Positions 10,131-35,800 of a stretch of 64,000 nt of DNA are shown in pieces; the first letter of the stretch is position 1; every line of letters begins with the position of its first letter. The notes beneath the pieces are model-generated. The model saw only the letters and a program-made list of their open reading frames with translations. It ran no database searches and was not told the origin of the DNA. Made by a program: the position numbers and the translations under genes. Origin of the DNA: Spinacia oleracea (taxonomy: Eukaryota; Streptophyta; Magnoliopsida; Caryophyllales; Amaranthaceae); NCBI RefSeq assembly GCF_020520425.1, contig NC_079491.1, positions 4,575,143 through 4,639,142 on the forward strand, in the 5' to 3' direction.

Positions 10131-10142
10131 TCCATTTATTTA

Positions 10143-10260
10143 ATTTTTTGGGTGCGAATGAGCCACAAGTATAAATTACAAATGGGAGCGGGGGATTCGA
10201 ACCTGAGACCTATTGTACACAGGCCCTCAGTTTTAACCACTAGGCCAAGGCATCATTGGT
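10143..10260 (-). mobile_element. tRNA-derived SINE, complete with target-site duplication
   Basis: Read on the minus strand, it starts GCCTTGGCCTAGTGGTTA (pol III A box) and carries GGTTCGAATCC (B box), then a tail ending CATTCGCACCCAAAAAA. It is flanked by a 12-base direct repeat TCCATTTATTTA at 10131-10142 and 10261-10272, as expected from LINE-driven insertion. About 118 bases. Other, poorer copies of this family lie near 28990, 30226 and 63360. Confidence 0.85.
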
Positions 10261-11060: not shown

Positions 11061-11741
11061 GTTCCTACACAATATAAACTAGAGAATCATACCATAATCT
11101 AAAACCCTTCAGGGTTGTACTCTTATACTCCTTTTTATATATCGGATAATTAGTGCTCGTCGTTTGTGGGTTTTTACCTCTTTCGAAAGGATTTTCCCAC
11201 ATTAATTTGCGTATATCTATTTTTCGTTATCTTGTCCCTCTCTTTGTCTATTTTTCTCAATCCTTCATTTGCTTCCGCCTGCGCTTCTAACCCCAACCGA
11301 ACATGACAAGAAATGAACCCAGTAGATAAAATGGATTGAACAATATTTCCGCAGAGAAATTACAAAGTCTGAATTATGGGGAAGCTTCGTCTACCAGGCA
11401 ACAATTGCCACTTTTGTCAAAAAATAATCAACAGAAAGTTGTAACAGGCTATACAGGAAGGGATAAAAAACACCCATCTCATATATATGTATATGTAATC
11501 TGTTTGGATTCATATATATGTATAATGGTATTACAATTTTACATGTTTGGCCTTGTATAAACTATATTCAAGCAAAACCTCCATCTGCTTGTCTGATATA
11601 TATGCAGCAGTAGAATAAGCTGTCTGGAAAATTGATGCTTATCATGGGAGTGTGTTACTTCTGTTACAAAATCTTCTAATATTTCAACTAAAAAGAATAA
11701 GATTGTATTGATCAAAGATATATATCTGTACTTTGTATGTA

Positions 11742-14700
11742 TCAGCAATTCTTCTTCATAGGTCGCTGAAATGGATCGATCCAGCAATCGTCATCTTTCA
11801 CTGCTTTCTTCCATCTATTCTTGAATCTCTCTAAATCTGTTAATGACTGTTTCCGCACCTGCAGAAGAATGATTTTAAATATTCTTTCAAGTTCTTGTTC
11901 TAGTACTTCCCATGCAGAAAAAATAGCATCATGTAAAATTAATTTGAGCAGAAAGTTAAGAAAAACTCAGGATTTCTTAGATATTGTTGAGAGAATCTAT
12001 ATATAAGAAGGAACATTCAGAGTCTTTCGGGACTCACTGAGTTTCTTGCATCAGTTGTTGTCTCGGACGTTGATGTTTCCTGCAAATGTAACATAGATGA
12101 ATAAGAATGTAAGTAATTTCTTCGAATGTTTCAAGAAGACTATATTAGGTATTCATGTAGGTACCCCTTGCGATGAATCCAACGAGGAGGTTTTTTCAGC
12201 TGCCTGAGTTGAGGCTTCAGTATCAGTCTGCATAAAAATATCATAAAGAGTAATGTTACATCTGAACAATATATCACAGCTATGGGTTTCCATTTTCCAT
12301 TGTATGGTGAAGAACAAAACTACTATGTATAGGGAAATTTTGTTTTTTTAAATCCTGCTTTTGGGAATAAAGATGGCTTCGGGTCGCGCACACTGGCCGT
12401 GGGCCGGACAGGTCGGGCTTCGGGTCGAACACATGAGCCTGGCCAGGCGAACCCATTCTACCTCGGGCCGGGCTGGGTCGGAAACTTCAAAACAAAGTCC
12501 ATGCCCGACACAGGCCTTGTCATGCCGGGGCCGGGCCGTTGTGCCTAAGCCTAGTTTTACTATATTATCGTGCTTTGTCGTGTCGGGTCGAGTCGTGTCG
12601 TGCCTTGTCATGCTTTTATCAAAAAAAATCCGGGTCACAATTTCGTGTTCATGCCGGGCCGTGCTTTTTTCGTGCCCATGCAGGGCTGGACTTTTTCATG
12701 TTGGATCGGCCCGGCACGGCCCACAGCCATCTTTATTTGGGAGCGGGAGAGGCCATTGTGTTACAGTCTATCAAGGTATCAGGAGAAGAAAGTAGCATAT
12801 GATTGTAAAACCCTAACTCAAGAGTGCAAAAATATAAGCCATATGGTTGATGCCACAATTCAAGACTCTGAAGTGAACAGCAAAATGAGCAAACTAAGCC
12901 AGTTTCTCGTTAATCGATTTGGATTTATACCTTGTTCTGTGATGTCCCCCCCAGTGTAGGAAGGCCATAGTGAATAACATAGTCAGAATCAACAATGCCA
13001 ATTTTTCTGGTTCTATCTCCCTATAAAACATAAATAATGATAGACATCAGAAATCCGCATATCAGAGAATTCAGGAAATGGAATGAAGAAAAATTGAAAT
13101 ACCTGAGCACAGTAACCAAGCTGGAAATCCACACCCCAGGCATGAACCAAGTCATTCTGCAAAACGTACGAAATTTGAAGGTTGTCATACAACAATCATG
13201 CGTCTGTACCAATTATTCTAATCCACATTCACTAACCAAAGTATCGTGGACATATTGAGCTATATGGCCTTTTTTAAATTTTTTGAGGGGCATGTTTTCA
13301 TGAACTTACATATGTAATATAGTCTGTACTATTGTAAAATGTAATAGTATGGTGAAGAAAACACACCTGGATTATATACCATGCACAGCGCCATGCAGCT
13401 CGGGAGAAAACTGGAGCCATCATCTCCACCCACCTATATATCAGCAGCATTGCTCAATTCCAGATTAAACAACGTATAGACAACTAAGACAAGTGAAACT
13501 CGGGAGTTACCAACCCCATTAACTCAAAAAAAAAGGGGGGGGGGGTGGAAGAAAGGAAGAGAAAGCATCAGATTTTTACCCTGTGCAAGGAGGTTCAGTA
13601 CTATTTTCATCACACTTTCTCCCACCGGGAAGGACTTTGTTGATTCTCCTGCAAGTCCATTAAGATAACGGCAACAAATACATACAGGGGTAAGGATTTT
13701 TTCATAGACACTGGTTTTTAACCGCCAAGCGGAAAAGACAAACACTAAAAAGCTGCAGTCTTAAACAACTGAACTAAGTGATCAAATGAATAAAACTGCT
13801 CAATTTCACAATCAACCATTGGCTCCGTTTGGTAGGGTGTAAAACGCATGGAAAACGATTTTCCCATTTTCAACCATTTTACGTTGTTTGGTTTGGCAAG
13901 GGATGGAAAACAATTTTTCATAACTCCCTAGGTGAAAAACATTTTCCATTTGAAAGGGAGGGAACCCATTTTTCCAACTTTCATCTCCTCTTTACCTCCC
14001 ACTCCCTTCTTCCTCTCAATCTTCACCATCTTCTCCCATTTTTCTTCAAGGAACCAAACAAAAGAAAACTAGTTTGGAATTGTGTTTTCCCTTGGAAAAT
14101 CATTTACACTGAAAACGTTTTACACCAAACCAAACGGAGTCTAGATCTCTCAAAAGAAAGAAAATGTGTTTGTGACTACTAAAAGCAGTCATACCACGGT
14201 AAACTGCCCTATTTAAAATATTTAAAATAAAAGGCTAACCTGTGCACAAGTGCGCCCTTCTGTCTAGCTGTAAGTTTATGATGAACCTCTGATTTATCAG
14301 GATCAAGTGCAGGTTGAGATATCTCTAGACCTTCTTTCTTGATGACATATAAATAGCTGAAAAAATTATAGCAGAAAGTAAGAAGCAGAATTTATAGAAG
14401 GAGCTGACAGAAGTAATAGAAGGCTAGATTACCGTTGTACACTGAAATTTTCAACTCCAAGGTCTTCATCCCAGAGGAAAATGTACGAGTATTGAGATAC
14501 AATATCAGGATGTAAGAAACGCTTTGCAAACCACCTGAAGGGAAGATAATGAGATGTATGTTGTTCCCAGAAATGTTGTAGACATTATGTAAAACTAGAC
14601 CTGGTTATTGGGTGGGTAGGGTCAGGGTCAGTGCGGGTCAAAAGCACGGGTCAAAAGCAGGTCGAGTAATGAAAGGGGTAAATTTAAGCGGGTCAATAAT

Positions 14701-17700
14701 GGACGGATCAAAGCGGGTCAGGGGTCAATAGCGGGCCGATAGTGGGCAAGTCAATAAACAAACAAGGAATTTTTTTAAAGAAAGAGTCGAATGCGAATAC
14801 AAGTGAATACGAAGCTATCCATACAAATTATTATATCATAACTAGTTTAGTTTTCAAAATTATCGTGTTATAACCTTGGCCCTATATTGACCCTATCCAA
14901 TAAAGGCTATGTCCAATAAGATCCCTAACCAATAAGAACCCTATTAACATTACCCAAACCCTATACCCATTAGGCTACCCTGTCCAATAACCAGTTCTAT
15001 GTAAAACCAGTCTATGTAAATACCATTTAGTTTGATGGGTAGCAACAATGTGCAATGCACGGGTACTCCACCCCAAGTCCTTCCAGTCATCCATATTGCC
15101 ATCATAATGAAAAAGCATCACGACAAAATTGTATCCTACAAACTGCAGGAGGGCAATAATGTACATTCAGTTCAGCAGCTGATAAACAATGAAGCCATAA
15201 CTTCAAAGAGAATTGTCTTCTCACCTTCCTCACGATTTTATCCACACTTTCCTTCTGCTTCAAACCAACAGCCATGGCCAACAAGTTCAGATTTGATTTC
15301 TGGGTTATGGAAAAGGGACAGACATGAGAAGGAAGAAAAAGTCATATCAGATAACAGAGGAATCAAACACATTTGAGGTCAAAACACATTTGATGTCATG
15401 CCTCACGAGTTGACGTCCACAGGTATATGTGTAAAGTAATCTAAGCAGGTTGCATTTCCTACTCATTATAAGTTAGTTAAATTATTAACATTGTCAGCTA
15501 ACTAGCTAAGAGCCTAAACTACAAAAACGAGTCAATTGGTACAAGTCTACAAATACCAGTCAGTCAATAGATTCAGTTTCATCTCAATTTGTGAAGATGA
15601 AAGAAATTTAGAGGGCAGGATGCAAGTACAAAAGCTATTTTATTTTATTTTGGTAAGTGAAACTTTATTACTTGAACCAACTGAAAGTTTACAAGAAAGG
15701 AAAGAAGTAGAGACATGTCTCTACCCGGCTTCCTAAAACAACAACTTATACACAGGCACAAAAGCCAAGCAACCTGTAAGCACCGAATAGGCAATTACAG
15801 AGACTGCAACCAGTCCAAATCAGATTGTTTAATCTTCTTCTTTAGACAAGTACAAAAGTTATTGACATCATATTGTATTTGCTAACCTTCTTAACTGGTG
15901 TACCCCACAGTGGTCGCATTTCTAAGTCAGAAGTGCTCGAAATAATACCCTTTGGCAATCCTTCAGTTCCAATAGGTTTACATTGCCCCTGAAAACAAAG
16001 AATACAATGCGAGGAAATAGCGCATGTTAGATAATGGAACATCAATATTGGTATGATGCTACAAGACCATAAAACCCTATTGATTTACATACCTCGCAAT
16101 TCTTCGATCTTGTTCTCAGAAAAATATTTAGTATGCCCTGTGGTGAGAAACTCTGCAATATTATAGTACAGCTCGTATAAGCAAAAGCTCGGTAACATGA
16201 AAACAAATGGAAAACTGCAACGGCCATATATCAAGTGTAAAAAAGTTAAAACAAATGGAAAACTGCAACGGCCATATATCAAGTGTAAAAAAGTTGTCAC
16301 AACTCAAGTACAATCCAAATGGCGTCAATTCTGATTTTGTAGAAGTTCTCTCAAAACACATAACCTTCTTCTTCACAGCTGTAACATTCTTTTTAATTAG
16401 TAATCCTACAACTCAAGTTAAACTTTTTCAGCCCTTGCCTTACTCATACGAGTCATACCTACTCCATAAACCATACTACTTAAAAGTTATAAGTCACCCT
16501 CTATGATGTGTGAGAGGTTTATTTTAGGAAAACAAGTTCACTTTAGCCCTCTTCTTGAATTAGCAAAGACAGTCAGCAAACTGTACAAGGTTGAAGTACT
16601 AAGCCTCAGTGGGTATAAATCAACTACAAAAGGAAAAAATGATCTAGAAGCTGTTATTTTTTTGAGCTTTTAGATTCTCCAGATATTCAAACTTTCTCAA
16701 GAATATCATCATCAATGCAACTAGTTAAGCTGAAAGTCAAAAGAAACCATGAATATGAGCAAACAAGATTTGAGTATTGTAAAAGGAACAGGAGTCACAT
16801 ATGTGGAAAAGTAGTGGACAAGGATGCCAAATGACTGAGTAAGGGAAATGACATTATAAGCTACACACATCAATATAAAATATAAACCATGAGCAAATCA
16901 AACAGTGATACATTACCTCCCCATGATCCGTTACAACGAATGCACTGCCAATGAAAACCGTGGCACAGAGCAAAGCCAGAGTAGGAAGGGACTTTATAGA
17001 AAAGGATCTTCGTCTTTTAGAACCAACAGAAGTCACCTGGTAGATGATATACAAAATTTAAGACCATATATGATAGGTGGATAAACCAATGAATTTCAGT
17101 GCTTATATATAGTTCACATCCCAAATTCCCAACTAATTCTACCATTCATCTAGGAGAAAAACCTCAATAAACCATCTGATATATTTCTTAACCACTATTA
17201 AGGATTGCTATAATGTACTCTATTGAAAAATCAAGCTTTCCGCTTTACATAAACCATCATAACGCAACCAGATTAAAAAATATAAAGGAACCTTGCCATT
17301 TCCCCCACCTTCCTATCTACTACCTCCGTTTTAAATGATCTTTACACTTTCCATTTTAGTCTGTTTCATAATGTTTTTTACACTTTACTTAATTCTATTT
17401 GGACATGAACATTTACCCCTCTTACCCCCAACATTTACAATTTTCCACTCACTTTCTCTTACTACTTCATTCATATTTTTCTACACCCACCCACCTTTTT
17501 ACCCATCTACCATCCTTTATCCATACTTTATTATATCTACCCACCTCTTTACACACTTTCCCTATTTTGTCTTAATATTTGTGCAAATAGTAACCGTAAA
17601 GATCGTTTTGAAACGGAGGTACTACATATATATTGGCACAGAAAATATTTTGCACGTCACTTACATGTTACTTGGTACTGGCTCAAGTGCTCGGATGTAC

Positions 17701-19021
17701 TCTATAAACATTAATACACTGTAACATGGTTTTTGGTAGACCAAACTGCATCTAACAAAAGAATATCCAAACAAAAATTTGCAACATCTTTATTGTTGGT
17801 TGCATTTGTACTACACTCCACTGTCCCATATCAATCAGACAGCTGTAACATGTACACTATTTGGTATGACCTCTGCTTTGGTATGATTAATGCAGAAACA
17901 AAATTTTACATCTAATGCATCGATAATAACCTGACCAATTGTTGCCTGGAATATGGTCGTTTATCCTCACCGGATACTCTAATTGGATTGTTAAGGAAAA
18001 ACATATTCTTCCGGTTAATCTATTCATATGAAACCAATAAGACCCAAAATCCCTTTTTTCTTATGAAACTAATAAGATGGTTCAAAATAGACCTATTATC
18101 AGATTCGCCAAATTCACTCTTGATCCAAATTAGGCTTGGTAGTGGGGTTAACCGTTCAGATTGATGGTTTGTGATTCAGAATTTGCTCACTGATGAGGAA
18201 ATTCCAGTAACACTGGTTTGTCACAAAACTGAAGGTGGCCAAAAAGCTTCATACTAGTACATTAAGATTGTGATTCTTCTACTTCCATACCAATACTAAA
18301 CCCAGTTTTCTCCACTCATTAATCTCAAGACCTGTAAATAGTAGTTTATCATAATAAAGTAGTTATTTTTCTACAAATACTGAACAATGGAAAGTTGAAA
18401 ACCCCATTTTTCTTTCTTTCACCAGTCTAGAAACCACCTTCATATTAGTAATGAAACACAGTTATTCCTCCAAGCCTCCATTTCCATCCAGCTACTAGGA
18501 TTTCGCAACGAAAAATCCGGTTTCCCTCCCTCATCTCTCTTATACTACTAATTGAATTTGATGGTCCCTATACTTTCATCTTGCTACTACTATCGGATAG
18601 TAAAATGAAACCCCATTTTTTCTTTCTCTCATCTGTCTTAAAATGTTCATAATAGCTACTGAAAAAGAGAATAAAAACTGCAACTATGTATAATTACCAC
18701 AAATCCCATGACATTATTTGACCAAACTAGTATTACCATTTATCAATTCATCCAAACTTCATGTCAAACAACAAAAATTAACACAAACATATTTAAAAAA
18801 TTCCAATGTTGCCAAAATAATTATACAATAATCGAATCTAAGTATGCATAACAACTAAGAATATTCGCAGTTTACTAACTAAAGCTTGAGCAACAGCATT
18901 CATATCAAAAACACAAAATGAAAAATCAAAACTTTAATGATTATCATACATTCTTATTATGAAAAAAGAAGAACAATTAATAAAAAAAAGGGGGAAAACT
19001 TACAAACTTGGAGGGCTTCAT
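11742..19021 (-). CDS. DUF707 family protein, 15 exons, complete
   Basis: A plant DUF707 protein (often labelled lysine-ketoglutarate reductase trans-splicing related 1-like; the biochemical role is not known to me). Coding exons: 19004-19021, 16917-17036, 16093-16152, 15887-15988, 15225-15299, 15024-15142, 14433-14534, 14240-14356, 13580-13648, 13367-13433, 13103-13156, 12931-13020, 12165-12227, 12038-12079 and 11742-11858. All junctions are GT-AG and phases agree, giving 404 residues, the usual family size. The N-terminus has RRR then a single hydrophobic helix (LPTLALLCATVFIGSAFVV), so a type II membrane protein of the secretory pathway is likely. Conserved blocks include SDLEMRPLWG, FVVMLFHYDGNMDDW, WFAKRFLHPDIVSQYSYIF, LWDEDLGVENF, GWVEMMAPVFSR, DLVHAWGVDFQLGYCAQ and the tail KDDDCWIDPFQRP. 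At least five introns hold inserted repeats, yet the exons are clean. The small exon-15 start and exons 13-14 are the least constrained. Confidence 0.88.
12367..12736. mobile_element. GC-rich MITE with inverted ends in DUF707 intron 12
   Basis: The left end reads ATAAAGATGGCTTCGGGTC and the right end is its inverted counterpart, GCCCACAGCCATCTTTAT. The interior is built of GGGTCG, GGGCCG and CGTGTCG words and is far richer in GC than its surroundings. The direct repeat at the borders (TTGGGA on both sides) is short, so the superfamily is not settled; a Mutator-like origin is possible. ORFs inside are by-products of the repeat composition. Confidence 0.65.
13821..14141. mobile_element. MITE with GGCTCCGTTTGG ends in DUF707 intron 8
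   Basis: Inverted ends: GGCTCCGTTTGGTAGGGTGT at the left and TTTTACACCAAACCAAACGGAGTC at the right in two short blocks. About 320 bases with no coding capacity. A related half-element is visible near 25077-25140 (ending AAACAAACGGAGCC). Probably a PIF/Harbinger- or hAT-type MITE. Confidence 0.7.
14596..14998. mobile_element. MULE-like MITE rich in GGGTCA, in DUF707 intron 6
   Basis: The 403-base element has inverted ends (AGACCTGGTTATTGG at the left, CCAATAACCAGTTCT at the right) and is flanked by the 9-base direct repeat ATGTAAAAC at 14587-14595 and 14999-15007. A 9-base duplication fits Mutator-like elements. The left part is a run of GGGTCA/GGGTCAA words, the right part a run of CCCTATCCAATAA-type words. 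The duplicated DUF707 fragment near 5580 lacks the insertion. A second, 5'-incomplete copy lies at about 32535-32852. Confidence 0.85.
15624..15858 (-). mobile_element. Short 5'-truncated LINE-like insertion in DUF707 intron 4
   Basis: A roughly 205-base insert has an A-rich tail on the minus strand (TTTTATTTTATTTT at its left edge) and is bracketed by the direct repeat CAAGTACAAAAG at 15624-15635 and 15847-15858. The inserted sequence has no protein match I recognise. The tail plus a long direct repeat indicates target-primed insertion. Confidence 0.65.
16200..16295. repeat. 48-base perfect tandem duplication in DUF707 intron 2
   Basis: The 48-base unit starting AAAACAAATGGAAAACTGCA occurs twice head to tail at 16200-16247 and 16248-16295, apparently without a mismatch. 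It lies in an intron and does not touch splice sites. Perfect identity suggests a recent slippage or repair event. Confidence 0.9.
17321..17621. mobile_element. Stowaway-type MITE in DUF707 intron 1
   Basis: Ends are TACCTCCGTTTTAAATGATC and, inverted, GATCGTTTTGAAACGGAGGTA, with TA target duplication. About 300 bases, no coding capacity. It is one of several Stowaway-like copies in the window. Confidence 0.85.
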
Positions 19022-20202
19022 CTCCTGGGGAAAACGAAAAAAGATAGAAAAACAGTGAATTTGATTCTTTGTAAATAGTGAAAAGGGAAGATAGATTTAG
19101 GAGTGGAGAGTGGCCAAAAAGTTAGGTTGCTTGGCATTGATTAAAGCCAAAAATGGAAACCCAAGAATGTTCAAGGGAGAAGAAAGTGGGGCCCTATATA
19201 AAGCATAAACCTCTGTTACTGTAAATGTAAAGAAGAAGAGATGCAATGCTTCGTGCTCCGTACTCATTGCTACCCATCTTTCCCTTTCCGACATTTGAAT
19301 ATGGAGACTATGGTGCTCAAAAAGGGAGTTAAGTTATGGGGTTTTGGGAAAAAATATTTATTACATATAAATGAAATTGAACAATGAAGCATGTTCTTTT
19401 CACCTTGCACATTTTCAAGTCTAACAAGTAAAATAAAGTTGCAATCAGATTTTATCAGGTCAATAAGTTTCAATCGTGTTTTATAATTGACCAGCTAATC
19501 AGTTTAGATTTTATCCGGCTAATAGAACACATATACAATTGTACATATCACATATGGTAAAGGAGAAGGAGCTTTATTGGGCCGGATTTTTACATGTATC
19601 GATTTGGCATGAGTTGAGTTGTGTTCTTTCTTATCTGTCTAGCTTATTTCTTTGTTTCATAAAAATTAAGTTAAAATAAGATAAGTTTGAGAACAGTCCC
19701 CAAATACTTCATCGGTCTTTTTTACTTGCATCATTTTTCTTTTATGGAAATTGCATATTAGTTGCACCACTTTCTTTCACAGTATGTTTTCACATATTCT
19801 TTTTGGTTTGTTCACACACACTAAACAATGACATTTACTTTTACTATTATTACCTAACTTTTTCCCTCCCTTTTGTTTGTTATCATTAGGCAATTTTGAT
19901 ATTTACAAAATAAATCTTAATTTTGTTCTCGGCCTAAATGGTGCAAGTAAAAAAAAAATTAAGGAAGTACTACATCCGTTTTTAATATAATGCATCATTT
20001 CTCATTAGGGCACTAATCATCAATTAAATTTGACAATATTTTTTCATCATTATGTAAGAAAAATTATAGTTAAGTGAGATATCATTAAATTCTTATCAAT
20101 GCGAGGATTTCAAATATCAACTTTTCATAAATTTACTTATACGCATTAAGAGATATTAATGTCCAAAAAAATGTGATGGACCATGTGCAAAAATAAATAT
20201 TA
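19022..20202. other. Intergenic, upstream of the DUF707 gene
   Basis: Holds the leader and promoter of the DUF707 gene (about 19022-19260). Around 19705-19975 is a degraded Stowaway-like element, seen as ACTTCATCGGTC...ACTTGCATCA at the left and GGTGCAAGT...AGTAC at the right. No gene seen. Confidence 0.5.
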
Positions 20203-20515
20203 GGGGGTGTTTGGTTGCGGATTCTAGGTATGAGCTATGGATTTAGGATGGTCTAAACTCATACCATGTGTTTGATTGGAAATTTTAAGAGATTTAAACT
20301 CATACCTCAAATCCCCAAGGTATGAGAGTAGAAAAACGTAGGGGGGTGAGTATGGCTCATACCTTTACTCTATATCGTATCAAACAAAAGAAAAGAACAA
20401 ACTCGCGCCCCAAATTGAACCAAACACATGGATTAAAAATAAAATTCCAAACTCATACCACCTTAATATCATTCCCGATTCCAACCTTATACCATTTTGC
20501 GAACCAAACGTCCCC
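20203..20515. mobile_element. Tourist-like (PIF/Harbinger) MITE
   Basis: Inverted ends GGGGGTGTTTGGTTGCGGATT-like on the left (given here in part) and GCGAACCAAACGTCCCC on the right, with the 3-base duplication TTA at 20200-20202 and 20516-20518. About 313 bases. The interior repeats the ACTCATACC/GGTATGAG word in both orientations. TTA duplications are typical of PIF/Harbinger MITEs. Confidence 0.85.
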
Positions 20516-20639
20516 TTACATGTATTGTGGAACAGAAAAAGTATAATTTACAAATAAAATAGATTTTGATAAGTTCAAATATGATAAATGAAAAAAAAAT
20601 GAAAATCGAGTAAATAAAACGCTTTTAATAAACTAGGCT

Positions 20640-20790
20640 CTTCAAGAGTATGAGGTGTTAGAACGAGTTTTGAATAGATAAGTTTCAGCCCCCTCCCAAT
20701 TGTTATTGCGGAAAATCGAACACGGGATCCTCCTATCATATTCATATTCATGCTTCAATCACCATTAAATCAACGCATAATTGGTGCAAT
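20640..20790 (-). mobile_element. SINE-like remnant
   Basis: The minus strand carries GTGTTCGATTTTCCGCAATA, a degenerate pol III B box plus the downstream sequence seen in SINEs of related plants. The A box and ends are not clear, so this is a remnant at best. Confidence 0.4.
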
Positions 20791-21482
20791 TTTAAGTTTG
20801 TGAGACTACACTTTTATTACTTTGGGTTTGATATGTTATCTTTTGGTTGACCCATGTTGGCATGTTACTCTTTGTAGATTTTATTAGTCGGTGGTGGACT
20901 AACAGTCTAACAATATCTTACACTTGACACAAAATTAATGGGACAAATATATACTATGGCCCCTGCATTAAATTCCTCGGATTATTTCTTTGTACTTGTA
21001 CTTTACAATTTACATATCATACAATACTCCTTTCGTCTCTTTTTTTTTTTTTTTTAATGCAAATACTCCTTTAGTCTCTGTTTTCTTCATTTCATGAAAT
21101 AATTGAAATAGGAAAAATAAATAAAATATAAAGAAATTATTTTTTAAAATAGGATTCTTTCCTTCTCGTATTTATAATTCTTATTGATAAAAATAAACAT
21201 GAATATTAAGAAAAATAAAATATAGATATTAATAATTGATTTACAAACAGAAATAAAACACATTACATAAAAAAGTAAATTATAATTCATTTTTTTGTCT
21301 TGTTGTGTTTTCAATACATTTTTAATTAATATAATAATATGAAAAAATAGAGAATAAATAGTCAGAAATAATTTTAATTAGGACAACCGATTAAAAAACA
21401 GGACTACGAATATGGGACAAAGCAAAATATAATCCATGATAATGATTTGAGATTGAGACAGGACAAACAGCCATGGGTGTCA

Positions 21483-21883
21483 GGCCCTGTTCGGCAAAAT
21501 TAGCGGTAGCGGGTAGCGGTTAGCGTTTGAGTAGCGGGTAGCGGTTAAAGTAGCGAGTAGCGGTGAATAGTAGCGGGTAACGGTTAGCTGTCAAAGTAGC
21601 GGTAACTAATATGATTGTTCGGTAAAAGTAGCGGTTGATATTATAAAAATAAAAATAAAAGCAAGAATATTATTTAAAACTTTATTATAAATTTGTCAAA
21701 CGCTACCCGCTACCTTAAACGCTACTAATTTTAACGTTTGACAAAAGCTACTCAACCGCTACCTCAATCGCTAACCGCTACCTAAATCGCTACTTTATCA
21801 AACACTTACATATTTTACAAGTAGCGTCTTGACTAGGTCAAAACGCTACCCGCTACCTCAAACGCTACCGCCGAACACGCCCT
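21483..21883. mobile_element. Foldback MITE built of AGCGGTAGCGGG units
   Basis: The first 130 bases are a run of AGCGGT and AGCGGGT words in one orientation, and the last 220 bases repeat CGCTACC/ACCGCTAC words in the opposite one. Outer ends are GGCCCTGTTCGGC and, inverted, GCCGAACACGCCC. The whole would fold into a long imperfect hairpin. Target duplication is unclear, so the superfamily is open (hAT or PIF type). Confidence 0.7.
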
Positions 21884-22544
21884 TAAACTCAGCGTGCGAG
21901 ACAAATTGCCAATCAACGTCAAATCAATGATGTTTCTTAATTCTTATCAAAACGTTATTAGTGGCTGATTGCCTGATTCAATACTAATCTGCCTAACATG
22001 CAACCACTTTCAACCAAAAACCAAGTCAAACAAAATTGTAAACAATTCACAATTTCACACTAACCTGAGGTTCAAATTATCTTTTTCGAAAAATATTTTT
22101 TACTAGACATACCAAAATAATTGTAACATTTTACTACTCCGTAGTTCGTTACATGGTTAATTTGAGTTTACTTACGAAGTACAGAGTATAACTTAAAATA
22201 CCTTACTTATCCCTTCGTGTCAAGTCAAGTTCAAATGTGCAATAACGTAATGTCTATTTTATGGTAAACAAGGAGAGTCGCCGGAGATTAAGAACAAAAG
22301 TTTGCTGGTTGTTTAGGATATATGGAGGTACATTTTGAACATCTCGAGAGACCAAAGCCAAGGCCCTGGAAATGTGCTTTTAAACCGTAAACACTGCTTT
22401 TAACCCGATTGCATGTAAAACTTCATATAATCGGATGTACCTTCTAATTTAGCGGTTAAACCCGTTGACACAAAGGAAACCTTGTTTCCCAAAAATGGAG
22501 AACAAAAATATAGTCTTAGTAACGGAACACATTATATTGCCCTA

Positions 22545-22860
22545 AAAAAAAAAAAGGTCTTGCGCGCACAAGGTGTACAATAAATTTATTGTACACCAAG
22601 ATAACTTTTATACAGTTTTTTGTAACTTTAACCTATTTGTCTGTAACATTTATATTATAAAATTAAAAAGTTGATAGATAAACATTTTAAAGGTTTAAAT
22701 GATTAATTTATACATTATTAGTGATTTTGAAGAAATAAATTTTATTCAAATGAAAAAATTTATCATGAAAAAATAGATAACTTTTACATATATAAATGTA
22801 ACTTTTAAGCATTTTGAATCAACTTTTACTTCGGTGTACAATATTTATTGTACACCCATT
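22545..22860. mobile_element. Repeat with two GGTGTACAATAAA palindromes
   Basis: Begins with an A run and GGTCTTGCGCGCACAAGG, then a perfect 26-base palindrome (22572-22597, GGTGTACAATAAA plus its reverse complement). About 235 bases later comes a near-identical 24-base palindrome (22833-22856). A diverged, incomplete relative lies at about 30040-30225, where the first palindrome is only half kept. No coding capacity; class unknown. Confidence 0.6.
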
Positions 22861-24059
22861 ATAAATAAGAATTTAGTCTCAGATTACACATAAAGAAATA
22901 AAACCGTACGATTGCATAGAGAAATAGAGATTATATATACTAACAAAAATAATTGAGGAATACAATATCTCAAATCCAAGAATTAACACATTCCAGGAGT
23001 TATTCTTATTCATACAAGAAGGATAAAAAGGTGAAAATGTTAAAAAAAAATATTGCATTGACACAGTGTTCCTAATTACCATTTACTAACACAACAAATA
23101 TGTACATGTACTCCAGTTTGATTCTTGTACTGCCCAGAAAAATATCAAATGAAGGACATCTTTTCAACGAAGACACCACCTCGAAAACTCGAACTTTTCA
23201 AAAAAAAAAAGACTTGGAAGGTTACAGATATACAAAATGCAGTTTATAAAATAACTCGTATCCAAATATGCAAGTGTTCAAGAGGAATTAAAAGGGAGAG
23301 GGACTTGGTTTAGTACACCACCTTCAGGCATCCCTTGTAAGTTGTAACTTCAAAAATTACACCAAATTAAGAGAAGAAACTCCTCAAATAAGCCGTCGTA
23401 GTACTCACAAGTCACATTCAAATCCGGGCGGGCCTATCTCCCGAATCTGCGTAATCAGCTAAAAGTAACACCATCATGCTGTGTGAATCAGGATGCCAAA
23501 GTTTACCTCAGAAAAGGTGCAAAAACACAATCAACAATAAACATTAGGGTATTATACTCTTGTGCTTCATCCTTCAAATCATCTGCTCATAAAATGAAAT
23601 CAAAACATAAATATAACCCTCGAGTTCAAGGTGCGTAGGAAGAAAAGTATACACGCACGCATGAATACATCGTAGATGAATATTTAAGGCTTTAAGCTAG
23701 CAGTAATGTACCAGCAACAATGTCAAGGGAAGCATGATAAAATAGTGGCAGTACCTATGGACAGCGTACCAAAAAAATGAGACAATGATGCTCAATAACG
23801 AAGTAAATGGAGCGACAAATTTCAAACCACCGTGCACAAAGAAGAGACTTCAACCATCTGGAACTAGAATTAAGAGCAAAATCCAGTCGAAGGATCGGGG
23901 TTCAAAATTGTTGCCAATAAGGATTGAATGTAAACTGGTCGGAGAGAAGGGCAAATTAAAGCAGGTTTAAATTACAAAGGTCATATTTAAAGATCTCAAT
24001 TCCTAAGAGTCAAGAAGAAGAATTAAGTTGGATTGTAGGAGTGATAGCTCAATACCAGC

Positions 24060-24900
24060 CGGCGAAGGTGTTATGAGGGAAGAGTGAAGTCAGCACCAGA
24101 AGAAAAGGTTAATGGACAAAAGCAGGAAACTAGGTCAGAATGCTTTACATCCAAGTGTATAAGAAGAGAAGGATTACAGTACATGATGGGAGGTTCACAC
24201 ATACTACGTATGTTATAGCTTTTAACATAGAGATCATGTGAGGATCGAGGTACTGGAGAAACCTATGATTTAGGAAAAGGAGGAGGTAACATGATGGTCA
24301 TATAGTATGGCGTAACTAACTAGTCGTGCCCTTTTTGAGAGAAGTGCAAAGTCAGCACCAGAAGAAAAGGTTAATGGACAAGAGTAGGAAACTAGGTGTC
24401 GTTTGGTTCAAATAGGAAGTAGAATTTCCCATGAAATGCAAATACATAGGAAATGAGTTCCTTAATTAAATTCATGGGAACTTGTTAGAGTTGTTTGGTT
24501 AATATGTGTGAAGTAACTTCCCATGGGAATTTCTACTTACCTAGGGGGAACTAGGTAAGCAAATTCCCCCGTTTTGTGGGAAGTTGAAATTCCCATGAAT
24601 TTTCACTTCCCACATTTCATCAAAATATTGTTAACCAAACAACTCACATATAGCTTGTGTAATTTATAGGAATTCTAAATTCCCATGTTTTGTATGCCAA
24701 CCAAACAACACTAAGTCCAAAATGTGTTACATCCCAATGAATAAGACGGGAAGGATTATATACAGTACACACATAGAAGGTTCTCACATATGCTAAAGCT
24801 ACTAGCACACACATAATGTGGATAGAAAAGGAGGTTTCAGAGAGGCATATGATTGAGGATGAGGAGGTAACGTGGCGTTTTATAGTATGATTTGAATGAA
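24060..24900. repeat. Imperfect tandem duplication, second copy split by a MITE
   Basis: The stretch with AGTCAGCACCAGAAGAAAAG at about 24090 recurs at about 24352, and the following sequence (GAAGGATTACAGTACA, then GAGGTTCACACAT, then GGAGGAGGTAACATG) recurs after the MITE at 24750-24870. Each copy is about 240 bases. Copy 1 reads straight through the point (GGAAACTAG/GTC) where copy 2 has the insertion. Confidence 0.75.
24396..24712. mobile_element. MITE with TAGGTGTCGTTTGGTT ends
   Basis: Left end GTGTCGTTTGGTTCAAAT, right end GCCAACCAAACAACAC inverted to it. Flanking trinucleotides TAG and TAA are compatible with a PIF/Harbinger-type 3-base duplication that has drifted by one base. The tandem copy of the host sequence 300 bases upstream provides the empty site. 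No coding capacity. Confidence 0.75.
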
Positions 24901-25540
24901 AAGCTTATGTTTGCTGTGATATATGCTCTGGTTATTTCAGGTGTAGATCATCTAAGATATATATGAGGTGGGGGTTTGGTAAGCTAGGGCCTTTAAAGCA
25001 AGTCTTGTTTTTTGTGTTTCTTTTAACATTACCATACAATCTCAACTTTCTCATATTGCCCCTTTTTGTTTAGAAAACTTGGGTTTTCCGGGAAAACCAT
25101 TTTCCAGGAAAGTGTTTTCGGTCAAAACAAACGGAGCCTTAGAGGGCCCTAGGAGACACTTTGTGACATAATTCTTAAATAACAATCGCGCCTAGTAACT
25201 ATGACTAGAGTAGAGTTTCTTATCAAGAGTCAAGAACTAGCTTACTATTCCAACTTGCTACTAAATGTTGTCCAGGTGCATATCAATTTGACACGGAAAC
25301 AAACCAATTTGTGTAGGAAACAAATCCGTGCAAGAGAACAAATTCTTGAAGGAACGGTCAAAGAATAACATGCAACAACTGCAAGATAAATATGAATGTC
25401 TATCCACTCACATGAAGATGACAAACCGTGGATATAATCATTCCCGGATCAGAAAGTAGCACTATGAAATTCCTGATCAAGCTTTCCATGTGGACATGTT
25501 GTCGAAGCGTATGAGGACGGAAGAAAAAAGAACTGCCTCC

Positions 25541-25630
25541 ATCTTTAGATTATATAACGATGCGAGACAGCACGCATGTGCGTGAATGCTGACAAGCGTG
25601 CTCTCTCTCATCGTCAAACAATCTTTAGAT
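25541..25630 (-). ncRNA. MIR535: MIR535-like microRNA precursor hairpin
   Basis: On the minus strand the 5' arm at 25617-25596 reads U followed by UGACGAUGAGAGAGAGCACG and a final C. It differs from the widespread plant miR535 (UGACAACGAGAGAGAGCACG plus C, from memory) at two bases, both transitions. After a 20-base loop, the 3' arm at 25575-25553 reads GCGUGCUGUCUCGCAUCGUU, complementary to the mature arm except for about three mismatches. The stem continues outward through AUCUAAAGAU on both arms with a few mismatches, giving a compact hairpin of about 90 bases. miR535 belongs to the miR156/157/529 superfamily, whose known targets include SPL transcription factor mRNAs. Expression cannot be judged from sequence. 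A short peptide frame also crosses the hairpin, but it looks incidental. Confidence 0.85.
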
Positions 25631-25639
25631 GAATTATCA

Positions 25640-28430
25640 TAGCAGTAATAACCTGCAACAGAGGGATGATAATCAATCATGAGAAAGCTAGGATAACAGA
25701 TGGAAGTGTCAACACAGATACAAGTTCTCAGACTACAACACATATCTTATCATCAATACAAAGAACTGTAAAGGACAGACTCCAAGATCTTCTAATTTCT
25801 CAAGGTTAAAGCAATCAAAGAGGTGTACAAAGCAGAATTATTGATTGGAGCAATATTGAAAACACAAGTATAATATACATTCTTGTTAGTACATGACCCC
25901 GCAAATCTAATACTCCGGAAGTGTAATTACCATAAAAGTAACCAAATACAGGCATACAGCACATATATATCACACGCTTTGCAAGACATCAACAAACCAC
26001 CTCGAAGTAGAAAGAAGCAATATGATTAACAACATAATGCAACCATGATTTCTCTCTTTTTATAGTTACCTTAAAAACGTATTGGCCTAAATGATCAAGA
26101 AATAAATGACACAAAGAAGCTCTCTTCTATAGTAACAATAATACTAACGTAGTCTATAAAATGACAGTGAATTGACTCATACAATTGTCACATTGTTACA
26201 ACCCCTCGTGATTATAAGAATTAGTACATGATTTACAATTCCAGCTCAAACTTGAGGTCACCTTCAATTTGTGGAGGTATGTAACATGGATTCCAATTAT
26301 GCTATGATTAATTATTTTTAGGGGTGATATGATTTTCAAGCAGCATAATGAATCTCTGAAACTTGCTTTTTTTATGCTGTTACATATGTAGACACAAGAT
26401 ATTCTACATTAATTCCTACACCCATAAGTCCATATGTCGTTCAGCTTAGCCAATGCGACAAAACAAATAAGCCTGACAAATGCAAGATCACTAAGGTCAA
26501 AAACATTTAAGAAATGAAATATTAAAAAAAAAATTGATACGAACATGGAAAATCTAAAGAAAAAGTAATGAAAGGTCTGACCTTCCAAGTAAATTTAAAA
26601 CTTTGATGTGCATGCGTGTGCCAAAGTTTAACGCTGTGAAATTTGAGACAATAATTGATCATATCGTGATTTTCTTTTATCTGGAAGACCGGAACATGAT
26701 CCTTAAAATAACAATGACAATTCAGGGAGGCAGGGAGTAACAAGGATAGATAAAGTTTGAAATTTCTGCTATGACACCCTAAATCTTCAAAACGGGAGGT
26801 CCTACTCCTCCGCCCCTAAAAGATTGCATGTATTCCTTTCCAAGGCGTCCCTTTAAGTTTGTCTCATACCTTAAATGGTAAATTTTCTCACTCTCTATCT
26901 CTCTATCTCTCCTCATGGGCCCACTTTACCAACTCATGTGCAAAACTTAGACCCAAATAAAGTGAAGTTTGCTCTATGGAGCAATCTTTTAGGGTCGGAG
27001 GAAATAGCTAATAGATGCAAGTGCTATGTTTCATATGCTAAAATCACAAGTTGATGTTAATCAATCCCTCCATTGGAACTAATTGTCAAGTATATTATTA
27101 CGGGATGCGTTTAATTTTGACCACACTATACCAAATTTGACCATTATGGCTTCCACAAATACTACTGGAAAAACTTAGATTAACAACTACCACACAACTA
27201 GAAGTCTAGCATATAGGTGAAGGTCAACGAAAACATCGATATCACATGCATATAAGATTTGATTAATCAACTACTAAAACTTTGAAATCCCACAAAATTA
27301 CAATTGCCAACATACAATAACAAGACAATTCACCACAATTTACCATCTGTGCAAATCACTAGACTGGTGAAGGATTCCGATATATATCATCAAATTAAGC
27401 CACCTCAATTGATCAAATAAAATCTCAATCAATTACCATTACAATTGAAAGTAAAAATCAAGCATAATCCAATGACAGATAACTTTGACCAGCATCAAAC
27501 TAGATTAAGAAAATTATAATTACACAAAATTAAACAAAACAATTGCAAACAGCACAAATAACTGGAACTAAGAGCATACCAGAAACCCTAGATTCATGGT
27601 TGGAATAATGGAATTAATCAATTATTGCATCATAAAGTACAGCAATTGTACAATAATGGAAACCCATTACATCAAAATACATACCTATAAAAGGAAATAT
27701 TAAGGAAAACAACCTAAACAATAAAACATCATTAACCCCAGAAGAAGAAAACATGATTGACATTAAATCATTAATATAAAAAATCAAATCCAACCCATGC
27801 ATAACTTTATATTAACACTACCAATGTGTTATTGTCCTAGAGTCAAAGATTGAGCTCTATATACGCTATGTCACGTGTTAGAATCCTTCCCTATTTGTAA
27901 TTTATTCATACCCAAAAAATTAGATTAAGACTAACAATTAAGTAATTAGCCAAACCCCACAAAAATTCATCTCCTAAACTTTAAACATGAAAATTAAATC
28001 TTTAAATAAGAACACAAAATCACACCATTTTAATCATAGGGAACTACAAAATAATGCACAGCAAAAATGGAAGAAAATAGCAGAAATGAACCTTGCTTGT
28101 TGCTCATCAACTCTGGTAGATGAGAGAGAAAGAAGAGAGAGAAAATAGCATTGAGAAGAAGAGTGCAGTTTTTTTTTTTGGGTGATTTTCTGGGGAATTT
28201 TGTAGGTTTAGAAAATCGAAAGGACAGAGTAGTAATAAAAGAGGAAAATAAAAATCTAGTGTGGTAAATTGACGGACAGCTAATATGGGACCCACTTGAA
28301 AAGTAAAACATGTCGAAATAAGAGAGGTCCACGTGTAGGGATGTCTAATCAGGTGTTGCCACGTAAGAGGATGTACGGGAAGAAAGGTACACTCTGCTAC
28401 ACAGAAGAGGAGATGATAAGATTCAACGAC
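25640..28430 (-). other. Probable upstream transcribed region of the MIR535-like gene
   Basis: No protein gene is supported over 2.8 kb. A pyrimidine-rich leader-like stretch on the minus strand near 28090-28170 ends at a donor-like AAGCAAG/GTTCAT, and a TTTCTG/GTATGC donor lies near 27580, so a spliced primary transcript from about 28.2 kb to the hairpin is possible. This is an inference; the exons cannot be placed without RNA data. A Stowaway-like MITE lies within it. Confidence 0.35.
26803..27006. mobile_element. Stowaway-like MITE
   Basis: Ends TACTCCTCCGCCCCTAAAAG and, inverted, CTTTTAGGGTCGGAGGAAATA, with TA at both borders. The adjacent inner words GATTGC and GCAATC also pair. About 204 bases. 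Confidence 0.75.
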
Positions 28431-28989
28431 CAAATTATTAGTTTTATTACGAAGTACTTAAATTAATTAATCATTTATTTATTTATTTGATTGATTAAGA
28501 CAAGAAAGAGTACAACAACATTATCATGTGTGATGCACGATCCAATGTGGGTTGATTGGTAAGTGGAATGAATTAATTAACGGTATGATTAAAATTTAAT
28601 TAATTAAATAAATAAAAGTTGAAGAAAGGTACATTTCATAGAACCCTAATTTTGAAAAGGGGGGAAAAGAAGATGGGTTGGTTTATTAGATTATTGATCT
28701 GAATGGAAGGTACAATTCGACCTTCTTTTAGTATTTGTTGGTGTGTGAGTTGTCGACCTTTTGTGGGTGGTGGCCTGGTGGGGTGATTTTTGGCTAATCA
28801 ATTTGATTACTCTCTTCGTTCCTATCTTTGTCTCATACTTTGTTTTTATTTTGGTCCGTCTTTTAAAGATTATTTTATTTTCTTATATAGTAACAAGTTG
28901 TTATTATTTACACATTTGCGCACACTTGTAAAAGGAAAAAAAAAAAACCATAACTATTCACGTCTCCTTGTAATATTTTGTTCCAACCA

Positions 28990-29117
28990 ATAAAGTCTTG
29001 TCTAGTGGTTAATACTGAAGATCTGTGTACGACAGCCGACAGGTCTCATGTTCGATTTTCCACACCCCCATTTGCAATTTATATTGCCATTTATGGCACA
29101 TTCGCTCCCCAAAAAAA
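28990..29117 (+). mobile_element. tRNA-derived SINE
   Basis: A-box-like TCTAGTGGTTAATACTG at the left, B-box-like CATGTTCGATTTTCC about 45 bases downstream, and the family tail with GCACATTCGCTCCCCAAAAA. It is diverged from the intact copy at 10143-10260. Flanking duplication not resolved. Confidence 0.65.
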
Positions 29118-29212
29118 TATCTCCCTTTATCCCTAAATGTTTGTCCCACTTTTCGCAAGTTCCGTAAAAATCTTTAATTATATACGCGTAAAAAGTTCAT
29201 ACTCTAAAATTA

Positions 29213-29569
29213 TACTCCCTTCGTTCCTAAATAAGTGTCACATTTGGGCTCGGGCACGGTAATTAATAAAGTTGTAAAGTGTGTAAGAGTTAATGATTGA
29301 GAATGTTTTTTTTGGGGAAAGGATAAAGTAGATAATTGTTTAATTGAATAAAGTACAATAAAAGTGTATGTGGGGATTGAAAAGTGGAAAAGTGTAGAAT
29401 GCGTAAGTAAAAGTAATTATGATTTATAGAAAAGTGGTAAAAGTGTATGAAAAAATGTGAAAAGTGTATGGAAAAGTGGGAAAAGTACATGTTTAAAAAT
29501 AGAAATGTGACACTTATAAGGGAACACCAAAAATGGAAATGTGACACTTATTTAGGAACGGAGGGAGTA
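29213..29569. mobile_element. Stowaway MITE, well preserved
   Basis: Ends TACTCCCTTCGTTCCTAAAT and, inverted, ATTTAGGAACGGAGGGAGTA with TA duplications; the pairing runs on through AAGTGTCACATTT. About 357 bases, with an extra internal copy of the AAATGTGACACTTAT terminal word near 29500. Confidence 0.88.
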
Positions 29570-30225
29570 CATTGAATCGAGTCTAACAAGATTTCATTTG
29601 TTATAGGTTAGTGATAACCCATGGTCAAACTTCTTACAAATGTAATAGGGCAAACATTTAGGGACGAACAAATAAATCACAATTTGTTGATTTATGGGGC
29701 AAAACAATAAGGGTGGATGGAGTAATTATGGGGCATCTTTAATGAGACATTTTTTAATATAGTTAGTGGCTTAGTGGAAAATGTGTAAGAAGTGGGGAGT
29801 GATGAGTGGGGGTGTGAAATTTTAAATGATTTTTTTGTAGGGAGTAGGATGTATGTGGGTTAATAGGTAAGTGTGAGAAATAATATATTATTGGTAAATA
29901 TTTCCATTTATAGAAGCGGTACTGTATTAAGGGACGACCCGAAAAGGAAAGAGGTGCGAGTATTAAGGGACCGATAGAGTACAGACTTTCTGAGCCGTTG
30001 TGACAATAAATACAACATAACTACAAACCTACCGAAGGGGCAAAAGGTCTTACACGCCCAGGGTGTACAATAATCGAGATAACTTCAACCCAATTTTTTA
30101 TAACTATTAAGATGTTTTTATTAACTTTTATATTATAAAATATTATGAAAAAATGTTGATATAAAAACATTCTAAAGGGTTAAATAGGTAGCTTACTACA
30201 TTATTCGTCATTTTGAAGGAATAAT

Positions 30226-30306
30226 TTTCAAGTTCGAATCCTCCCGCACCCATTTGTAATTTACATTGCCCTTATAGGCTCGTGACTCATTCGCACCCAA
30301 AAAAAG
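30226..30306 (+). mobile_element. SINE 3' half
   Basis: Starts near the B box (AAGTTCGAATCCTCCCGCAC) and keeps the family tail ending TCATTCGCACCCAAAAAAAG. The 5' half with the A box is missing; in its place is the palindrome-type repeat at 30040-30225. Confidence 0.65.
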
Positions 30307-31284
30307 AAGCAACAGCAGGAGAACAGAGGGAAGACTCGATAAGCAAAATCAGATTGCGTGCAAGATTTTGTTAAAAATTAAGCTACATGGCATGACAACA
30401 GTATATTAGCAAAATTCTGGAACGAAAATAAAAGGATTTCAGCAAAATTCTAGTAATGGAAAACATGATTTCGAGTAGAACTACAGGACACAAGATCAAA
30501 TTCATAGGATCAATAGCTTTTGTACTCATTCTTCAATCAAAGGGGATGATTCACTTGGGATCATCAAATCTTCACCTGAATCATGCAACAAAATCTCCAG
30601 AACCTTGTAAAAACTGTCCTCTGCATCCAGTAGTCTTCGCGTCATGGAAGTATATCAGTGCTGCTGATTTGTACTTCAATGTCTTCCACAAATTACCTAC
30701 ATTACAAAATTACATCCATGATAGATTGATAAGAATTTGCAAATTGCCAGAAACTTCAACGGATTTATGTTCTTAGTTTGCAGACTCGTTTATGCAGAGA
30801 GTATACTTTAAGGTTTCAGGTGTTGTGTGGTTTGGTTGATATATTATGTACAGAGGAAATATTTTAAGACATCAAAATGTGATGTAATTACTAGTCTGTT
30901 GCCCAAGCCATGCCTCGGGTTGCTACTTTGAAAAGTATAACTGTATATATTCGATTTTTTATTAAAAAAAAACTTGCCTAAAAGAACATTGTTATTATGT
31001 CGCAAATGGAAGGAAAAAAATTCAAAAACCACAAAATTCAAGTTGCTAAGTTATTTCTTTAATGAATTTGAAGTGTCTTAAAGCACAACAAATACTTGGC
31101 TAAGACTTATTATTTAATACTTGTTGCTAACAAGTTCGAATCTTTATAGTAACACATTTTTGTTGTCACGATAATTGCTAAATATGTAATGTGGCACGGT
31201 TTTAGTGCTAAAATATTGTTACATGTGGGCCTGTGGCACTTATACTTTCTTATAAACGTTTTTCAATGGAGTAGTATAGACAGA

Positions 31285-32854
31285 TTACCTCAAGACACTT
31301 TGTTGCCTCCCGTCTGGGATAGCAAACAGAACAATTGGCTTTGAACGTCTCACAAAGGGAACATCACATCTGAAGTACCCTTTCCTCTCTAATTGAATAA
31401 CTTCTCCGTGTTTCAGATTTCTCAAGTTTGCATCTCCAATAGCCAAAGTCTCTTTCTTTGTGACAGGATTCAACACACCAAGGAAATCCTCATCACCGTC
31501 CGCCTGAATCAAGTTTAACAAGAAGATTGGTCAGAGAAACAACTTATATAGTTATATCCCTCCTAATTTGAAGAGGAAAGATAAAGCATTTACTTGTTTA
31601 TCAGAAAAAAATGGAAAAATAAACTCCCTCAGTCCCAATTTATTTTTTACGCTTTCTGTTTCTAATGTCCCATTTTAATCTCTACACTTAGAATCTTTCC
31701 TTTTATATTGTATAAAAGTCCCTAATATTCTGTCACACATCGTGTCAAATGATTATTTCAACCAATCAAATTCATTTTGGTTATTTTTAACATTAAATCA
31801 ATCACTTTCCCATTAAAACATTAATGTCAAATTTTTGATAAAAGTGAAAATATTAGTAATACACGTAATTTGCATTGTTTAAGTTAAACAAAAAAAGATG
31901 GAAACATTAAAAAGTTAAACAAAAAAAAGAATCTTTATCCACATTAATTATTTGTTAAATCGCATGCATGATAATACCAAACGTAAAATATAAAAAGGGA
32001 CGGAGGGAATACCTTCTTCTTTGTAATTAAGTAATCAAACTCCACAAGCTGAAGTTTAACTAACTCATCTATCTCAGGCAACCAGGTTAGCTTCAACTTA
32101 GTGGTCTTGACTGATCCATCGAGATTCAGAACCCCTATTAACTGTGTAACTTTACCAGCGTCGTCCTTCTTAATCTCTTTAATAATGGCATTCCCCCAGT
32201 CCATCAAAGTCACTTCTTCATTGACAGAGATGGCCTCTGCGTCGGCATGATCAATCCATATGTTCTTCGTGAACGTTGTGCACTTCTCTCCAGCACCTTC
32301 GTACTTTTTATGACGGGGTATGATCCGTGCAAATGGTTGCTCAGGCCCATCAGTTAGAGTCACCATAACACGGCTCTCCTCTGTTACTGCAGTGTGTCTA
32401 GCACACACAGGATCAAAGATCTTTTTGTTTATGGACCACAGCTTATCCCATTCCATGAGATTGAGATTTTTGGAAGCCCCCTGCAGAAAAGAAAAAACAG
32501 ACAAGGAACAGAATTATACAAGGAGAAATATACAGTCAAAAGCGGGTAGGGTGATTAAATGGTCAATTTTAGCGGGTCCGTAGTGGGCGGGTCACGGGCC
32601 AATAACGGGCCGATTGTGGGCGGGGACAATAATCGAACAAGGAAAGTTGGAAAAGAAATAGAGTTGTATGCGAATACAAGTGAATACGAAGCTATCCATA
32701 TAATTTTTTATATTATGACTATTTTAGTTTTCAATTATACTGTAATAAGTTTGGCCCTATATTGACCCTGTCCAATAAGAACCCTACCCAATAAAAGCCC
32801 TATTAACATGACCCAAACCCTATACCAATTGGGCTACCCTGGCCAATAACCATG

Positions 32855-32890
<36 letters not shown>

Positions 32891-35800
32891 TGTACGGAGG
32901 ACAGTACAAGCTACTAATTGCAGAACATAATTAATTTGTTGCCATCTCACCTGTTCAAGTATGAACTGGATTAAAGCCTCAATTTTGAGCCCTCTACGGA
33001 CAATGCCTTGCACAGTGGGAAACCGAGGGTCATCCCAGCCATCAACCTTTCCATGTTGAACAAACCAGAGAAGCTTGCGTTTGCTGAGAAGAGTGTAGAC
33101 CATATTCAGTCTACTAAATTCATATAAATGAACTTTTCTTAGTCCCATATCCTTTTGAATCCAGTCATATTGAGCATTGCGATCATGATATTCACTAGAC
33201 CTAAGAGCATGTGTTATTCCTTCCACGGAATCTACAAATGGACAGGCAAAGTCATAAGTAGGGTAGACCTTATACTTGGACCCTATCCGATGGTGAGGCA
33301 TTGGATTGCATCTGTAGTAAACAGGGTCACGAAGGGATTTGTTTGGATCCTGCATATCCAGCTTGCCTCTAACGCAACACATTAAACCCCTTTCAGATCC
33401 GGCAATCATTTCCTTCCATAGCTCTAGGTTCGTTTCCACACTGTTATTCCTGCATTTTGATTCAATCCCTTCCCCTCTTTCATACTGCATTTGCTCACGT
33501 GGTGAATCATCAACATATGCTTTACCCTGTCGGATCAAATTCTCAGCCATTTCCATCAACTCAGGGAAGAAATCAGAAGTATATGTAACCTTATCATAAA
33601 CAATGCCCAAAGTCTCAATATCCTTGAGAATGTTGTCAACAAACTCAGTACTCTCTTTGGCTGGGTTTGTGTCATCAAAGCGCACAATCAGACGTCCTTT
33701 ATACCTTTCAGCAAAATATTTATTCAACAATGCTGCTTTTGAGTGTCCAATGTGAAGATACCCACTAGGCTCTGGAGCAAACCTTAGACAAACTTTCCCA
33801 ATTTCAGCATGAGGAAGGTCTATTTCAGACTGGTTAGATGTTTTCACCTTCTCGTTGATATCACCACCACCAGTGCTCTTTGATTCATTTCGAGACTCTT
33901 GGTCTTTCAATTTCGCACTCGCGGGCTTCCCCTGGCCCTTTTTCCCAACATATGCTTGCAAGATCTCACTCAAAGCACTGAATTCAGAGGTTAGCGAGTT
34001 GTACCAACGAACCAAGTTTCGGTATTTCTTGTTAGACTTTATCAAGCTTTCCCACCTTGGGCCAGTACCTACATAACAAAACTTCAACAAGTTCAAAATG
34101 GAAAATATCTACAGAACCTACATTGTAAATTCCAATGTACTAGATAACTATTCAATGAATATTGAATACTTGAACATATTTTTTTCACAACTAAAAAGGA
34201 CTTTTTTGACCCCCCCCCCCCACCCCCCCCTCAAAAATCCAACCTGGATCGGTTCACCTAGCAGGCTGGCAACTAGGTCCTATGGTCCATTCATGGAAGC
34301 TCAAGACACACATATATATGTATATAAGTTAAAACTGACAGCCAGATCTTCAACTCCTATGTAAACAGCTCAAGCAAAAAAACCAAGAATTGACAAACCA
34401 ACTATTCGATACAGGTGTTAGCACCTAGATTGAGGCAACCAATAGTTATTCTAATAAAAATCTTTTGAAATAAGGTGCTTCCCTGTCACTGAAAATTGGT
34501 GAAGACCTATCTCAATTCCAGAGGAATAACTTATAGATTTTAACTCCCCCAAACAAAAACTTATCACAGGCTGATATATAAGGGGAACAATGCAAATGGT
34601 TGATGCTGTGATTTTAACATTCAGAGTATATCCTCAACCAATGATATATATGAGCACATCCTCTACCTAAATCACAGGAAACACCACTTCCGCCATTATT
34701 AAGATATTTCTTGTTCAGCTTTACTGCTAAAGTCTCCATCATCAAATGTCTATCGCTCTTATACGTGTATGCAGAAATTATCTACTGTACAAAGTGTGAT
34801 GTGGGCAGAACAAGGAAAGTGATTTTACCAATTTGAAAATGGAAACATTATGATCGTGAATCATATAACATATTAACATCTACCCAAAAACAATTAAGCA
34901 CGAGTATATATATATCAGACATGCTCTTCGGAAGCTTAAAGTTTATGAATCTAGTTCAGAGTTTCCTCACTTAGATCACACACACCCCTAGGTCCCTAAC
35001 TACACGAGTGCCATTGGGCCAATATGAAAATTGCATAATCACTTAGGTAAGCATAAAAACACATCAGAAATTTAAAGAAAAATGCACAATAAAGATTTAC
35101 TAAAATATTAATATCTCTACCAGCAAGGGCAGCCCACAATGCGATGTCAGCAATTGATACATCATAGCCAACCAAAAAAGTGTTAGCCGATAAATAGGTG
35201 TCCAGATAGTTGCAACCAGATTCAAACTCAGATCCTTTATCAAGAATGGGTACACAATCCAACATTTGATCAATCTGTAAAGGAATGCATGCAGAATTAG
35301 AACAGAATTCAGGCTAAAGCCCCTGTAGTCTCATAAAAAAACCAAAATATGTTTAAGGGGGAAAACCTGTCCAGTCTGTAATAGATTCTTCCCATAAATA
35401 GTCCGGTTAGTCGCAACTCTGCCTACATAACGCAGTAAAACAGAAGTTCCACGGAGCATAGACCTATTGTAATAGTCAGAATACCAGTAATTAGTTATAA
35501 AAGTGGCTTTGGTACGTCGTTGGGAAACAAAGTTTTCGTCAAATGATAAAATTGCAACACGTTTGCAGAAGAACCCAAGTAGTATAATTAATTTCCCGGT
35601 GACCCCAAAGTAATGTCACATATCAATTTCAAGTATAAGAGACGGGCATGTATATGCAAATCGCTGGATAAAATATGTCATGATCCCTCCCCATCTCTTC
35701 CCCAATCACTTTTAGTTTGGTTGGATACAAAGAGAAACGCGTGAAACTATACAAAGCCTTCCTAACAGCAATGAGTTCAATCAAACTTCTCATACATCCT

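Follow-up and report, generated by a model that had tools for sequence, protein, structure and literature searches.

The closest described counterparts of the spinach locus reported here are miR535 genes and small RNAs from other plants, including ice plant and pokeweed, both members of the Caryophyllales. miR535 is related in sequence to miR156 and miR529. Its canonical mature form is printed for pitaya and, in the accessible part of the corresponding report, for grapevine, whose miR535 precursors were called the first identified in core eudicots by their describers. A variant, which is exactly the 21-mer found in the 64,000-nucleotide stretch of Spinacia oleracea DNA analysed here (the window), has been published from rose, strawberry, ice plant, pokeweed and curry leaf (Murraya), as documented in the sections at hand of these reports. 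The same sections name it miR535 in pokeweed, strawberry, curry leaf and one rose study, and give it as a novel miRNA in ice plant (mcr-miR3; PMC4977306) and in the other rose study (rhy-miRC9; PMC3655976). They also record 1991.70 RPM for the 21-mer in pokeweed, where miR535 is given as one of the most abundant of 24 conserved miRNAs, 24,750–67,950 reads in rose, 27,761–30,627 reads in strawberry, 65.4 and 50.4 RPM in ice plant, for which the star is in print, and apparently a single read in curry leaf. In Beta macrocarpa, a species of the Amaranthaceae, miR535 accounted for more than 10,000 reads and the form miR535d_1ss7CT is listed among its miRNAs. This name denotes the window sequence and is printed together with it in the available part of the strawberry study; the Beta form is thus the same mature form by name only. 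Pitaya, which likewise belongs to the Caryophyllales, has the canonical form, so that the variant is not the sole form in that order. Broad searches of the CC0, CC BY and CC BY-SA literature on Amaranthaceae and their kin yielded no miR535 among the matches listed (30 of 7,348 and 20 of 971).

The targets described for the family include SPL (squamosa promoter-binding-like) transcripts. In banana, cleavage of SPL by a miR535 form other than the window variant was detected in the degradome and by 5'-RACE for two SPL genes, and the SPL site cut by miR535 there can also be cut by miR156; SPL cleavage by another such form was likewise reported from the camphor tree degradome. For rice, suppression of SPL7/12/16 is cited in the portion of PMC7601473 at hand. 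In the experiments of PMC7601473 itself, raised OsmiR535 consistently lowered only OsSPL19 of the seven predicted SPL targets, while OsSPL2 and OsSPL18 went up.

A search of the whole window at the curated Rfam thresholds returned a sole match, RF00714 (MIR535), at 25625–25548 on the minus strand (E 4.1e-11). The match spans the complete model (1–95 of 95) with 64.4 bits, only 0.4 bits above the gathering score of 64. On the plus strand the same hairpin reaches 46.9 bits with MIR535 (laxer thresholds, 401-base stretch), and for this reason the minus-strand assignment is right; a plus-strand gene is ruled out by this score and by a weaker fold of −41.3. Over the whole window, E values up to 0.1 bring in just one further match, a weak hit to TeloSII_ncR30 (27.4 bits versus 86). 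The features of the locus are as follows.

25538–25633, minus strand: MIR535 foldback, whole predicted stem-loop (fold −50.9 kcal/mol, z −7.61)
25548–25625, minus strand: match to Rfam RF00714 MIR535 (64.4 bits, gathering score 64, model 1–95 of 95)
25596–25616, minus strand: miR535-5p mature 21-mer UGACGAUGAGAGAGAGCACGC, identical to published small RNAs (19 of 21 positions paired)
25576–25595, minus strand: 20 nt between the mature arm and its partner, upper stem plus loop (from the fold)
25553–25573, minus strand: predicted miR535* on the 3' arm with a 2-nt 3' overhang (from fold geometry and the register of the ice-plant star)

Structurally, a plant microRNA gene is recognized by a short foldback, few duplex mismatches and the possibility of 2-nt 3' overhangs, and in terms of expression by precise 20–22 nt reads from both arms. 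The locus conforms to the structural part of this definition with a 96-nt foldback, two mismatches and a duplex without bulge. The RNA of 25633–25538 (minus strand) folds into one continuous stem of −50.9 kcal/mol, compared with a mean of −26.17 kcal/mol for 200 dinucleotide shuffles, none of which is as stable (z −7.61). Among 6390 folds of 111 nt calculated at steps of 20 on both strands of the whole window, the most stable one (−49.1) lies over this hairpin. Upon addition of 100, 200 or 300 nt of flank per side the miRNA stem is kept and the outermost seven pairs are exchanged for others. The arms are also recognizable as an inverted self-match of 74% in blastn (25540–25631); an inverted-repeat search with a 9-base seed found none at the hairpin, because perfectly matching runs between the arms fall short of the seed length.

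The mature arm, 25616–25596, reads exactly TGACGATGAGAGAGAGCACGC; relative to the canonical form it carries two transitions, A5>G and C7>T. Within the duplex 19 of 21 mature positions are paired; the two mismatches, A9 opposite G and G14 opposite G, are single ones and position 2 forms a G-U pair. A star at 25573–25553 is predicted from the 2-nt 3' overhang geometry. It shares its register with the ice-plant star, as printed in the available part of that report, and differs from it at 5 of 21 bases. The ice-plant mcr-miR3 is thus alike in its identical 21-mer and unlike in its star and in its label, which is that of a novel miRNA rather than miR535; for pokeweed miR535, the available part of the report likewise gives a 21-mer identical to that of the window. 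In common with the RF00714 family the window hairpin matches the full-length model on the minus strand and carries the mature sequence on the 5' arm, whereas its loop is much shorter than the model consensus. The first-pass annotation, made from the letters of the sequence, had proposed a MIR535-like precursor on the minus strand, and the Rfam scores on the two strands and the fold z-score bear this out. Its account of the mature arm with two transitions, of an opposite arm 20 bases away (25595–25576) and of a stem extending outward (to 25633/25538) holds, as does the continuity of the stem, a break in which it had named as a refutation; its estimate of about three mismatches between the arms comes close to the two mismatches and one G-U pair found.

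To assess the consequences of the two variant bases, the conserved SPL site (sequence from PMC3727082) was set in 200 random flanks and paired with each of the 16 possible versions of the mature sequence at positions 5 and 7. The window form ranks 7th of 16 with a mean duplex energy of −31.08, followed by the miR535d form (9th, −30.68) and the canonical form (12th, −29.68), and miR156 reaches a mean of −33.8 at the SPL site in random flanks. Pairing of the window form with this literature-derived site is therefore computed to be as stable as that of canonical miR535. It involves one bulged target base and one mismatch, in contrast to miR156, which pairs with the site without a bulge. In a home-made, unpublished mismatch score, in which the two 3'-terminal bases were barred from pairing, the window, miR535d and canonical 21-mers all receive 8, compared with 6 for the 19-nt curry-leaf form and 1 for miR156. 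The changes at positions 5 and 7 neither break nor greatly improve the pairing with the SPL site. The earlier suggestion that these bases, as part of the seed, could shift the targets is not borne out by the computed pairing, which they do not worsen.

The hairpin, the family match, the duplex geometry and the exact agreement of the mature arm with small RNAs sequenced from other plants form the basis for reading the locus as a MIR535 gene, and on these grounds it is almost certainly a plant MIR535 locus. A decayed or silent copy, in which the hairpin is kept and the locus is untranscribed, would be compatible with the Rfam score just above the threshold and with a star that departs from that of ice plant at 5 of 21 bases. 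Such a copy is nevertheless very improbable, given an unbroken stem with a strong z-score and a mature arm that matches, base for base, small RNAs expressed in several species. Practically negligible is the likelihood of a MIR156 or MIR529 gene, or of a transposon hairpin or a GAGA-rich inverted repeat formed by chance. MIR529 (RF00908) matches weakly on both strands of the 401-base stretch, with 22.7 bits on the minus and 26.0 bits on the plus strand; these scores are far under its gathering score of 75 and rule out a MIR529 gene, and MIR156 gave no Rfam match at E values up to 0.1 in the whole window. The repeat or transposon alternative conflicts with the single copy in the window. A search for the 21-mer allowing up to three mismatches returned one site and, on the plus strand, the opposite arm of the same hairpin (mean of 100 shuffles 0.00). 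Neither this pattern nor a fold of this stability arises in shuffled sequences, and a chance or GAGA-repeat origin is thereby ruled out.

A further alternative accepts a real miR535 and departs from the favoured explanation in the target only, in that the main targets in this lineage would be other than SPL. It is suggested by the entries for the exact variant in the accessible parts of the respective reports: HMGR1 as sole target in the strawberry degradome (category 2, p 0.07), ITR3 and a P450 as predicted targets in ice plant, and flavone synthase in rose; an SPL gene is absent from the target entries contained in these parts. For a near form, the section at hand of a sweet cherry study gives PWP2 as predicted target and cites a rhomboid-like target in Poncirus. 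In the Beta macrocarpa report, none of the four main-text mentions of miR535 falls in the degradome target table. Yet the entries for the exact variant are weak or are predictions, the rose table is restricted to the flavonoid pathway, and in computed duplex energy at the SPL site the variant does no worse than the canonical form. We consider predominantly non-SPL targets rather unlikely, and still less likely the more specific proposal that the G5/U7 form of some Caryophyllales and Rosaceae drifted from SPL to other targets, which, if true, would mean that some eudicots turned an old SPL regulator to a new function. By membership of the family, SPL is probably the main target of the window miR535; we infer this regulation, because SPL-site pairing involves one bulge plus one mismatch and SPL is missing from the target entries given above for the variant.

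In the favoured MIR535 reading, a minus-strand transcript would fold into the hairpin, from which a Dicer-like enzyme would excise the 21-nt duplex. The 5' arm would then be loaded into an Argonaute, and the loaded miR535 would cut or repress mRNAs, most likely those of SPL genes, at the site it has in common with miR156. The locus is an ordinary member of a known family; its annotation is sound, and its exact mature sequence is already published, from Caryophyllales among others, and is not new. The first-pass annotation had seen special interest in a copy from an Amaranthaceae-like plant; this is taken away by the mature sequences published from Caryophyllales and, by name, from Beta. With family and mature sequence on record, the finding is no surprise. 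It is of use to annotation in that the locus is now placed with coordinates, strand and predicted star.

The surroundings were analysed by Pfam scans of all six frames in 15501–34500, of the minus strand also in 10001–16500, and of eight chosen open frames elsewhere. In 15501–34500 the six-frame scan gave no hits other than domains of a tRNA synthetase (minus strand, the final one ending near 31363) and the first part of a DUF707 domain (minus strand, about 15985–15827), which continues into the adjoining stretch. The hairpin lies about 5.7 kb from the former and about 9.6 kb from the latter, with no recognised domains between. The longest open stretch across it comprises 89 codons and has no Pfam domain, by which a coding origin is ruled out. 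According to the accessible part of PMC2831844, plant MIR genes are typically separate genes. Ten TATA-like words in 25500–29500 and two acceptor-like sites in 25620–25800 were found, none of them decisive. A splice-acceptor-like CAG (25655–25653, minus strand), preceded by a pyrimidine-rich tract, lies 36 nt upstream of miR535-5p; the MIR535 primary transcript may be spliced.

Several other elements were noted in the window. Glutamyl-tRNA synthetase domains extend over 31363–33796 in three frames on the same strand as, and upstream of, MIR535, the class I synthetase being called glutamyl type by its best solved relatives. tRNA genes were not detected by a scan with the bacterial code, and a comparison with viral contigs gave 0 matches. 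A second strong hairpin at 24494–24624, with 111-nt folds down to −46.8 kcal/mol and an inverted self-match of about 70%, is possibly a small transposon-like element, and several stable 111-nt folds occur at 12381–12751 near a 27-bp tandem repeat. A LINE-like retrotransposon occupies 43078–46137 (plus strand); its frame 44539–46137 encodes reverse transcriptase and zf-RVT domains and is preceded by a 420-aa open frame (43078–44340). Finally, a 1166-aa open frame at 55456–58956 (plus strand) combines DEAD-box helicase and KH domains with a charged, repeat-rich N-terminal part.
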